Source: Actinomycetes bacterium
GTDB taxonomy: Bacteria > Actinomycetota > Thermoleophilia > Gaiellales > Gaiellaceae
Length of the DNA: 32,906 nt
NCBI GenBank assembly: GCA_023251945.1
Contig: JAHEXT010000008.1
Span: 1-32,906, forward strand
Reading direction: 5' to 3'
Shown here one piece after another: positions 24,138 through 26,297 of this stretch. Both the position numbers and the translations under genes were made by a program. The stretch's first letter is position 1, and the number at the start of each line of letters is the position of its first letter. Below the pieces are notes generated by a model. It did no database searches. It was given only the letters and a program-made list of their open reading frames with translations, and was not told the origin of the DNA.

Positions 24138-24205
24138 CTTTCCTCCGGACACGTCCGAAAGAGCGCGTTTCGCACTCGCATCGACGCAACTACCGTCGCG
24201 GGTGC

Positions 24206-24292
24206 GGAGAGTGAAGGCGCGTGGTGCGCCACCCGATTGACAGTCGAGGTGTCCGGTTGCCACCGGATCCGGTTCGAGTCCGGCGCCCTCCG
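24206..24292 (+). tRNA. Candidate non-canonical type-II tRNA-like gene (8/4 or 9/4, long variable arm, anticodon loop TTGACAG = GAC)
   Basis: Acceptor GGAGAGTG/CGCCCTCC (one A-C mismatch, one G-U); D-hairpin GGCGC-GTGGT-GCGCC; anticodon arm CCCGA-TTGACAG-TCGAG (one mismatch); V-arm GTCCGGT-TGCC-ACCGGAT; T-arm CCGG-TTCGAGT-CCGG; G73, then CCCA. Confidence 0.4.
24232..24246. repeat. Left arm of perfect 15-bp inverted repeat (CCCGATTGACAGTCG)
   Basis: Exact reverse complement at 24398-24412. Confidence 0.9.
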
Positions 24293-24386
24293 CCCAGGCA
24301 TCGCGTCGGCCTTGAGGGTCACGGTGTGGCGACCTGCTGTCAGGCCTTCAGAGCCGGCGCGGTTGCCGTCCGCAGGTTGAGTGGGC

Positions 24387-24392
24387 TATGGT
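24387..24392 (+). promoter_or_regulatory. Candidate promoter -10 TATGGT (with TTGCCG at 24363-24368, 18-bp spacer)
   Basis: Hexamers match bacterial housekeeping consensus at 4/6 each. Predicted TSS falls on the right arm of the inverted repeat. Confidence 0.35.
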
Positions 24393-24397
24393 GAGAG

Positions 24398-24412
24398 CGA
24401 CTGTCAATCGGG
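24398..24412. repeat. Right arm of perfect 15-bp inverted repeat (CGACTGTCAATCGGG)
   Basis: Exact reverse complement of 24232-24246. Confidence 0.9.
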
Positions 24413-24480
24413 CGCAAGCGGGGTGGCTTTCCCCGCACTCGCGACTTCACCTCAGTCGGCCCGCTTCGGCGGGCCGTCGC
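24399..24480 (+). ncRNA. Candidate small RNA bounded by a promoter-like motif and an intrinsic-terminator-like hairpin
   Basis: Follows TTGCCG-N18-TATGGT. Contains GCGGGG-TGGCTTT-CCCCGC and ends in GGCCCGC-TTCG-GCGGGCC. Confidence 0.35.
24458..24475 (+). terminator. Hairpin GGCCCGC-TTCG-GCGGGCC
   Basis: Perfect 7-bp GC stem with a UUCG tetraloop, followed by GTCGCTTGTC. The U-tract is weak. Confidence 0.6.
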
Positions 24481-24731
24481 TTGTCGGTGGTAACCGCGTG
24501 ACGTTCGCGTCCTGGGACTTGATTCTCTTGCCTCCGGTGTTAGGGTCGGCCCGACAGAACGAGATGGGCTCAGTCTGGGTCGAGCTGCCGATCCTGTAGC
24601 CCTCGGCCGGTTCATCGCGTTAGCCGGCCCGAGCAAGCAGGTGCGCCGCAACGATCGCAGCCTGAACGCCTCGCGCTCCAGAGACTGCCTCGACGACTTC
24701 CGCCGGCAACCAGCGTGTGAGGAGGTTCTTC

Positions 24732-26297
24732 ATGCAAGGCAAGAGCGGGAGCCGGTCCGGAGTCCTGCAGTGGGTCGTCGTGCTCGTGGTCGGCGTCTTG
24801 GTCGTGACCGTCGTCCTCGGCCTGAATCTGATTCCACGCCTGAACGACGGCCAGAACGTCCTGGACGCGGCCAGGCCGGCGTTCGCTCCTGAGCGTGTCG
24901 CAGGCGCCCGAGCCGGCATCGACATCATCTCGGCCGACGTCGACGTCGCGGATCCGATCGGTACCTCATCGGGCACGGGTGCAACCGAGGTGCCGAAGCT
25001 GATCGCGTTCGTCTCACAGCAGACCGGGCTTTCTGAGGCCGAGGTCGTCGCCGCGCTGCAGGAGAACTTCCCGCACACGACCGCGCTCCTGCAGACGATC
25101 CCGCTGTCATCCGTGACGGCGGAGCTGCCCGGCCTGCTCGCGTTCCTCGAAAAGACACTCGATGTGTCGGAGCCCGAGCTGCTCGCGGCGCTCCAGGCGA
25201 ACTTCCCGCGGCTCACCCAGTCGATCGTCAACCTGCCGACGGTCACCAACGGGTGGGACAACATCCAGTCGATCGAAGGGGCCTCGCGCTTCGACGGCAC
25301 GCCCATCAAGACCGTGCCAGACCTGAGGACGTACTTCAGCTCGGATCTGATCCCCATCTTGGAGACCCAACAGAGCAACTTCGCCAGTCTCGACGGGACA
25401 TCTACCGTGAACTGGATCGCACCCCTCCTGTTGATCGTCGGGCTGGTCGTGATCCTGTTCGCGGCGCTGATGATCGCGCTGAATCTCAGGGGACCGGTAT
25501 CGCGCGGGCTTGCCATCGCGAGCGCGTCGGTCGTCCTTGTCGTCGGTGTGGGAGTCGTGGCACTGGTTCTCGCGGTGTCGCTGGTCCCGCGGGTCGACAA
25601 CGGACAGACGCTGCTCGACGCCCTACGTCCTGCCAACGACCCCGCACGGGTCGAGGGCGACCGCGACGGGATCACCATGGTCTCCGCGATCGTCGACATG
25701 GAGGACCCGATCATGACCTCGCAGGGCGGGGCCGCGGCCGAGGTGCCGAAGCTGATCGCGTTCGTCTCACAGAAAACCGGGCTTTCGCAGGCCGAGGTCG
25801 TCGCCGCGCTGCAGGAGAACTTCCCGCACACGACGGCGCTCCTGCTGGCGATCCCGCTGTCGTCGGTGACGGCTGAGCTGCCCGGCCTGCTCGCGTTCCT
25901 CGAGAAGACGCTCGATGTGTCGGAGACCGAGCTGCTGGCGGCGCTGAGCGCGAACTTCCCGGGGCTCGCGCAGTCGATCGTCAACCTGCCGACGGTCACC
26001 AACGGTTGGAACAACGTCCAGTCGATCGGCGGGGCTACGCGCTTCGACGGCACGCCCGTCAAAACCGTGCCCGACGTCCGTACGTACTTCGCCTCGGACG
26101 TGATCCCTGTGCTAGAGACCCAGCGAGGCAACTACGAGAACCTCGTTTCGACCTCGAACATCGACTTCATCGGGCCTCTGGTGCTGATCGTCGGGATCAT
26201 CGTGATCATCTACGGGCTGCTCATGGTGCTCCTGGCATGGCGTCTGGAGCCCAGCACGAGCGGGGCCACCAGACCCTCACCGATACCGGCGACGTAG
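24732..26297 (+). CDS. Membrane protein of unknown function with an internally duplicated TM-ectodomain-TM unit
   Basis: SD GAGGAGG immediately upstream of ATG 24732. Two copies of EVPKLIAFVSQxTGLSxAEVVAALQENFPHTTALLxxIPLSSVTAELPGLLAFLEKTLDVSExELLAAL, and four hydrophobic segments. Confidence 0.85.
   Translation: MQGKSGSRSGVLQWVVVLVVGVLVVTVVLGLNLIPRLNDGQNVLDAARPAFAPERVAGARAGIDIISADVDVADPIGTSSGTGATEVPKLIAFVSQQTGLSEAEVVAALQENFPHTTALLQTIPLSSVTAELPGLLAFLEKTLDVSEPELLAALQANFPRLTQSIVNLPTVTNGWDNIQSIEGASRFDGTPIKTVPDLRTYFSSDLIPILETQQSNFASLDGTSTVNWIAPLLLIVGLVVILFAALMIALNLRGPVSRGLAIASASVVLVVGVGVVALVLAVSLVPRVDNGQTLLDALRPANDPARVEGDRDGITMVSAIVDMEDPIMTSQGGAAAEVPKLIAFVSQKTGLSQAEVVAALQENFPHTTALLLAIPLSSVTAELPGLLAFLEKTLDVSETELLAALSANFPGLAQSIVNLPTVTNGWNNVQSIGGATRFDGTPVKTVPDVRTYFASDVIPVLETQRGNYENLVSTSNIDFIGPLVLIVGIIVIIYGLLMVLLAWRLEPSTSGATRPSPIPAT
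24987..25345 (+). repeat. Direct repeat copy 1 (period 753 bp)
   Basis: Nearly identical to 25740-26098 with no indels, beginning GAGGTGCCGAAGCTGATCGCGTTCGTCTCACAG in both. Confidence 0.9.
25740..26098 (+). repeat. Direct repeat copy 2 (period 753 bp)
   Basis: See copy 1. The offset is constant at both ends (24987 to 25740; 25329 to 26082). Confidence 0.9.

Follow-up and report, generated by a model that had tools for sequence, protein, structure and literature searches.

The window, meaning the whole stretch of 32,906 nucleotides that was analysed, carries an allo-tRNA-like gene, a folded 3′ trailer and, about 100 nt downstream of the tRNA, a second RNA gene made up of a TATGGT -10 box, a guide, a hairpin and a terminator (Table 1). 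The tRNA had already been proposed in a sequence-only reading of the same DNA, and its acceptor, D-hairpin, anticodon loop, V-arm, T-arm and G73 were all found where that reading had placed them. The account given there holds for the tRNA but misses both the antisense gene and the trailer.

Table 1. Features of the two-gene module in the window.
Feature	Position	Strand	Evidence or remark
-10-like box TACCGT of the allo-tRNA	24191–24196	+	TANNNT box at like spacing in the family
Allo-tRNA-like RNA	24204–24296	+	ARAGORN, tRNA-Sec-like cmscan match, family models R1 and R2, covariation
8/4 core of the allo-tRNA	24206–24292	+	G73 at 24292; encoded CCCA at 24293–24296
Acceptor stem, GGAGAGTG with CGCCCTCC	24206–24213 with 24284–24291		8 bp including one A:C mismatch and one U:G pair
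D-hairpin GGCGC-GTGGT-GCGCC	24216–24230		D-stem of 5 bp
Anticodon-arm target CCCGATTGACAGTCG	24232–24246	+	perfect 15-nt inverted repeat with the guide; duplex -32.9 kcal/mol
Anticodon GAC	24239–24241		with U33 and A37
Long variable arm	24251–24268	+	loop TTGCCA at 24257–24262; GCCA can pair with TGGC of the sRNA hairpin loop
T-arm	24269–24283		4-bp T-stem, loop TTCGAGT
3′ trailer, long hairpin	24297–24367	+	fold; family tests of trailer hairpin loops
Antisense sRNA gene	about 24387–24484		
-10-like box TATGGT of the antisense sRNA	24387–24392	+	predicted start about 24398–24399
sRNA guide CGACTGTCAATCGGG	24398–24412	+	complementary to the anticodon arm; predicted 5′ end of the sRNA
sRNA hairpin GCGGGG-TGGCTTT-CCCCGC	24418–24436	+	sequence; equivalent hairpin in other sRNAs
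Intrinsic-terminator-like hairpin CGGCCCGC-TTCG-GCGGGCCG	24457–24476	+	ends the sRNA; strong G+C-rich hairpin at the matching place elsewhere

ARAGORN calls the window gene as tRNA-Val(GAC). No family in an Rfam scan of this tRNA reaches its gathering score; the top match, tRNA-Sec (RF01852), has 37.1 bits (E = 7.8e-6) where 47 are required, and RF00005, used as the test for a canonical 7/5 type I tRNA-Val, is matched by neither of the two copies in genome G000. The folding energy beats that of dinucleotide shuffles (z = -2.4), and the covariance models built for the family, R1 and then the refined R2, give scores of 97.2 and 92.4 bits. Transcription is predicted to start near 24203, nearly at the 5′ end of the tRNA, and in 16 of 28 members the tRNA model start is preceded at 12–16 nt by a TANNNT box, a motif with a background frequency of 0.0009 per base. 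The copy has defects: acceptor pair 5 is A:C, the anticodon stem contains a C:A, and GCCCA stands in place of GCCA. Since the gene's 3′ end reads G-CCCA, a strict 8/4 reading (8-bp acceptor, 4-bp T-stem) shifts CCA by one base; a ninth acceptor pair, C24205:G24292, is possible and gives a 9/4 reading. With one acceptor and one anticodon-stem mismatch, the window copy may be weakened.

A DNA search of relatives revealed more copies, including a second one within G000. The comparison set has 34 members, of which 33 were aligned for covariation and 31 were used for acceptor identity; it provides 28 tRNA/sRNA pairs. The seed alignment of R1 (A3) had one extra T deleted from three seeds, and R2 was built from unmodified sequences. 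Covariation of the helices, the absence of which in relatives had been named beforehand as refuting, is present: both bases vary at 23 of 28 pairs, the 33 aligned members have standard pairs in 94.6% of the cells, and none of 500 shuffles matches any of these measures. The V-stem has 5 bp, is 100% paired and shows double changes at all five pairs. The 8-bp acceptor and the 4-bp T-stem covary as well, and a ninth pair, C:G in 27 of 31 members, offers a 9/4 alternative; a clear G73 or acceptor strand is missing from 3 of the 34. The 8/4 allo-tRNA-like gene first suggested for the window is thereby supported through family alignment and covarying helices. Other matches were rejected: R1 picks up mostly ordinary tRNAs from ~44 bits downwards, the R2 matches of ~48–56 bits in families f8 and f9 proved to be tRNA-Ser of the ordinary kind, and Curtobacterium pattern matches (L073, L079) have neither the family fold nor the pairing.

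DNA downstream of the tRNA masks the member's own anticodon in 29 of 34 members, and the guide sequence differs between members. Over positions -7 to +5 around G34, own partners pair at 353 of 364 positions in the 28 pairs, against 240.5 ± 8.7 (maximum 277) in 20,000 permutations of partners. Taking the best downstream match as the register gives the own partner an advantage; 71 canonical tRNAs put through the same procedure serve as an independent control. Their downstream score is 17.4 ± 2.7, with 5 of 71 reaching at least 22 over the anticodon, compared with a mean of 28.6 and 29 of 34 in the family. Cognate duplexes have a mean energy of -31.4 kcal/mol vs -16.5 for non-cognate ones, and by the same measure the copies within one genome are mutually orthogonal. 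Three congeners (G004, G009 and G006) have the module at what is apparently one locus, next to a ribonuclease-H-like reading frame, and their anticodon arms differ, each with a matching guide. On one contig (G398:C24), two allo-tRNA/sRNA modules stand in tandem (L452 / L391), both with a GCC anticodon and with different guides. Pairing in L043 and L044 covers 11–12 nt only and is individually no better than the best shuffles.

The sRNA gene has signals of its own. In 26 of 28 members, a TANNNT box (background 0.0009 per base) precedes the base opposite G34 by 14–21 nt, which is a second independent check on the pairing; given this fixed spacing before the guide, the sRNA should begin with its guide. 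In the other sRNAs a G+C-rich hairpin follows the guide, and a terminator-like hairpin was present in the copies inspected. An Rfam Yfr1 match over the sRNA (19.1 vs 38 bits) was taken as chance. The anatomy of the module, that is, the tRNA fold, the two RNA genes and the cognate, co-varying pairing, is strongly supported at the level of sequence comparison. A decayed pseudo-tRNA next to a chance inverted repeat might be suspected from the acceptor and anticodon-stem mismatches of the window copy and from the scores of ordinary tRNA models, which stay below cut-off; the sequence-only reading had kept a pseudo-tRNA as an option. This explanation is hardly credible and is refuted for the family, given the covariation inside the tRNA and between both RNAs and the 15-nt perfect match in the window. 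The family is better described as selected for structure and for pairing with the antisense RNA. The pairing by itself does not imply toxicity or addiction.

A second contact is probable between the loop of the V-arm and the loop of the sRNA hairpin, with matches such as GTAGTG/CACTAC and AGTCAC/GTGACT. The family-wide match is 186 for own partners against 154.3 ± 7.8 (p = 3e-5), a significance that shared ancestry among members can inflate, as it can in the trailer tests; for this reason the contact is rated only as probable. Members with long spacing between the two genes have a strongly folded 3′ trailer. Subject to the same inflation, its hairpin loops match the member's own anticodon loop (p < 1e-5; in a second test, 15 of 22 matched vs a permuted mean of 4.9) and, more weakly, the V-loop (p = 6e-4). 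The window trailer contains CTGTCA (24337–24342), the complement of the anticodon loop UGACAG, and TGGCGA (24327–24332), the complement of the V-loop UUGCCA with one G-U; both are partly paired within the helix in the minimum-energy fold, and masking by the trailer would be a weaker reading for the window copy than family-wide. Four intact members (L346, L355, L356 and L357) have no sRNA, and each of them has a trailer with an anticodon complement, which is short in L346 and L355. The sRNA, the trailer or both were present in every intact member compared.

Of 31 members, 29 combine the base pairs G1-C72, G2-C71 and A3-U70, and 29 carry G73. These are SerRS recognition features in E. coli, and the host tRNA-Ser has like acceptor features (GGAG...CTCC-G). 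The anticodons of the 34 members are GAU (11), GAC (8), GAG (7), GCC (6) and GAA (2), corresponding to Ile, Val, Leu, Gly and Phe and never to Ser. A serine-type acceptor with a non-serine anticodon, as proposed for the window copy alone, is found throughout almost the whole family. G34, A37 and the anticodon set are tightly conserved, and the conserved loop is NYG[A/C]NAN; some loops carry C33, which weakens decoding. The C-ending codons for these anticodons are used at 34–62 per 1000 codons each in six genes of the window. Canonical tRNAs for all five, Val (GAC), Ile (GAU), Leu (GAG), Phe (GAA) and Gly (GCC), and for Ser are present in the near-complete relative G004; with this complete set, the allo-tRNA is not needed for decoding. 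Serine at these codons would be damaging.

The preferred reading, with a probability of about 0.5, is an RNA-only toxin-antitoxin-like (type VIII-like) module, with an antisense RNA that silences a missense serine tRNA. The first gene would encode an allo-tRNA of 8/4 geometry and serine type, with an anticodon directed at a codon for a hydrophobic residue or glycine (Val GUC in the window), and the second, just downstream, an antisense sRNA with its own promoter and terminator. On the anticodon arm, the guide would span the 5′ stem strand and the complete loop and reach into the beginning of the 3′ strand; the loop of the sRNA hairpin could in addition contact the variable arm. The sRNA is thus predicted to open and mask the anticodon arm and to keep the product silent, and in many members the trailer may mask the anticodon in cis, so that the precursor is kept silent too. 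If free, the allo-tRNA would be charged by SerRS and would insert Ser at very common Val, Ile, Leu, Phe or Gly codons. Expression, serylation, mistranslation, toxicity, silencing and addiction are steps that we infer from sequence. The fuller proposal, of a new RNA-only toxin-antitoxin class with a serine-charged missense tRNA as toxin, a two-site antisense RNA (anticodon arm and variable loop) as antidote, a cis-masking 3′ trailer and many orthogonal copies that diversify within a bacterial class and are carried by viruses, is put forward tentatively, at slightly less than even odds.

The two-RNA arrangement recurs in related soil and sediment bacteria. Members of the tRNA family were detected in 24 of 399 sampled genomes of the class Thermoleophilia and in 9 of 129 at the level of the order, with further members in two other families. 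They are patchily distributed, a genome carrying as many as four or five; of the eight congeners that have mltG, G000 alone has the module beside this gene. Adjoining the module, at 24717–26297 of the window, is a long ORF with two internal repeats, a Thermoleophilia membrane-protein-like gene; in a relative, mltG is followed by shikimate dehydrogenase instead. Those records of the pattern scan that have names are Actinomycetota metagenome bins, one of them labelled Thermoleophilia. No mobile-element neighbour was seen consistently, and a search of a plasmid collection for the family yielded no match. The tRNA/sRNA pair is present on two IMG/VR contigs, L080 and L215 (170 kb and 44.6 kb). A search of INPHARED phages returned a single weak 38-nt match only, the tail-like protein of L080 has no relative in INPHARED, scans of viral sequences with broader TGATA or TGACA patterns added no real members to L080 and L215, and a viral scan with a pattern for the f8/f9 T-arm found nothing. 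Large viral contigs very commonly carry a tRNA-Ser with 8/4 geometry and serine anticodons (many loci among L153-L271, IMG/VR). A different, apparently widespread phage tRNA-like element was noticed in IMG/VR (L099, L103, L110, L113, L116, L126, L129, L149 and others); it has an 8/4-like acceptor and T-arm (NNNNCGGTTGTTTCCAATGGGAACGGTTAG...ATCCGGTTCGAATCCGGCGCCGNNNN) and seemingly lacks a normal anticodon arm.

A further reading, suggested by the two viral contigs and the conserved loop NYG[A/C]NAN, makes the tRNA a decoy or sensor in phage defence or for anticodon nucleases, its anticodon loop being protected or exposed by the sRNA. This role is very unlikely, as the part of the copies whose surroundings were inspected has no recurrent nuclease or defence gene nearby, and canonical Val, Ile and Leu tRNAs with identical anticodons are present in the cell.

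Two orphan sRNAs share the guide GGGTGTCAGCCGGTCG and have no allo-tRNA of matching type nearby: L481 (G004:C3:3466-3538) and L037 (G000:C48:9500-9569), in genomes that are 97% and 63% complete, respectively. Upstream of L481, a promoter-like remnant TACCGT was observed. One copy in G008 has lost its acceptor, and a member in L048, L049 and L078 (G067, G015) has no anticodon arm, with the acceptor, D-, V- and T-arms kept and with flanking sequence common to both genomes. Under the toxin-antitoxin reading, it is expected that a tRNA is lost and its sRNA kept. The anatomy would also fit regulated mistranslation, in which the conditional release of a useful missense tRNA adds diversity to the proteome, with the sRNA and trailer acting as ordinary regulators and not as antitoxins. 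Allo-tRNAs do insert Ser at non-Ser codons in E. coli (PMC7609411), and the decoding features (G34, A37 and the anticodon set) are tightly conserved. Nevertheless, the patchy presence, the many private orthogonal pairs per genome, the orphan sRNAs and the decayed tRNAs look more like addiction or immunity modules, which makes regulated mistranslation rather unlikely. The orphan sRNAs, together with the sRNA's own promoter and terminator, may also point to regulation outside translation, where the sRNA actively regulates other targets and the tRNA-like RNA serves as a sponge or decoy; irregular Acidobacteria allo-tRNAs were inactive in E. coli translation (PMC7609411). A sponge, on the other hand, needs neither the SerRS identity (29 of 31) nor the limit to a few G34 anticodons, the guides differ among copies of one genome, and members without an sRNA still mask their own anticodon in cis; such a function is considered unlikely.

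To our knowledge, no dedicated antisense control of a tRNA has been described in bacteria. For the natural role of allo-tRNAs with the wrong anticodon, a co-evolving antisense partner offers a direct and testable answer, namely that they must be silenced. If this is true, the module poisons by mistranslation, a mode of toxicity new for RNA-only systems, and orthogonal, switchable suppressor tRNAs would be at hand for genetic code work. Allo-tRNAs were reported from Clostridia, Proteobacteria and Acidobacteria, with anticodons for 35 of the 64 codons (Mukai et al. 2017, via the review PMC7609411). The present RNAs share with them the 8/4, 12-bp acceptor branch, the long variable arm, serine-type identity with non-serine anticodons and an occurrence in soil bacteria. 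They differ in coming from Thermoleophilia and in having five anticodons rather than a wide range, and the review mentions no dedicated antisense RNA or cis anticodon-masking trailer. For irregular allo-tRNAs with G-1, a link to toxin-antitoxin systems or transposons was guessed (PMC7609411). A literature search for an allo-tRNA with an antisense partner or for a tRNA-type toxin gave nothing relevant (Mukai et al. 2017 being covered via the review only), and the literature searched contained no dedicated antisense RNA, cis anticodon-masking trailer or two-site recognition for an allo-tRNA.

The 8/4 tRNA-Ser of phages has a near-identical acceptor (CGGARGGTG/CGCCYTCCG) and a 4-bp T-stem, but its anticodons are those of serine, and the genes in the scan have no comparable downstream antisense. 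The long acceptor/T branch, with 9/4 geometry possible, is shared with tRNA-Sec, the top Rfam match, although the UCA anticodon is absent from the family (GAC in the window) and the score is below gathering. A T-box specifier hairpin likewise offers a codon-like triplet plus a purine to an anticodon, as the trailer loop does; here there is no downstream gene, the trailer matches the adjacent allo-tRNA, the sRNA ends in a terminator-like hairpin, and Rfam has no T-box match at the window module.

Among toxin-antitoxin systems, type VIII shares two adjacent RNA genes with cognate pairing; this match is one of anatomy alone, and the module was not filed as an established member of that type. The silencing in hok/sok (type I) combines a precursor that is silent by cis folding with a separately promoted antisense RNA acting in trans. 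A cis-silent precursor with an own-promoter antisense in trans would be common to both systems, but the target of hok/sok is the mRNA of a toxic peptide and not a tRNA. With CreTA, if the reading is true, the module shares a toxin and an antidote that are both RNA and tRNA-dependent decoding as the target (PMC8501985). CreT sequesters a tRNA, and the crRNA-like guide CreA represses creT transcription with Cas proteins (PMC8501985), whereas here the presumed toxin is the tRNA itself and the predicted antidote pairs with the toxin RNA directly.
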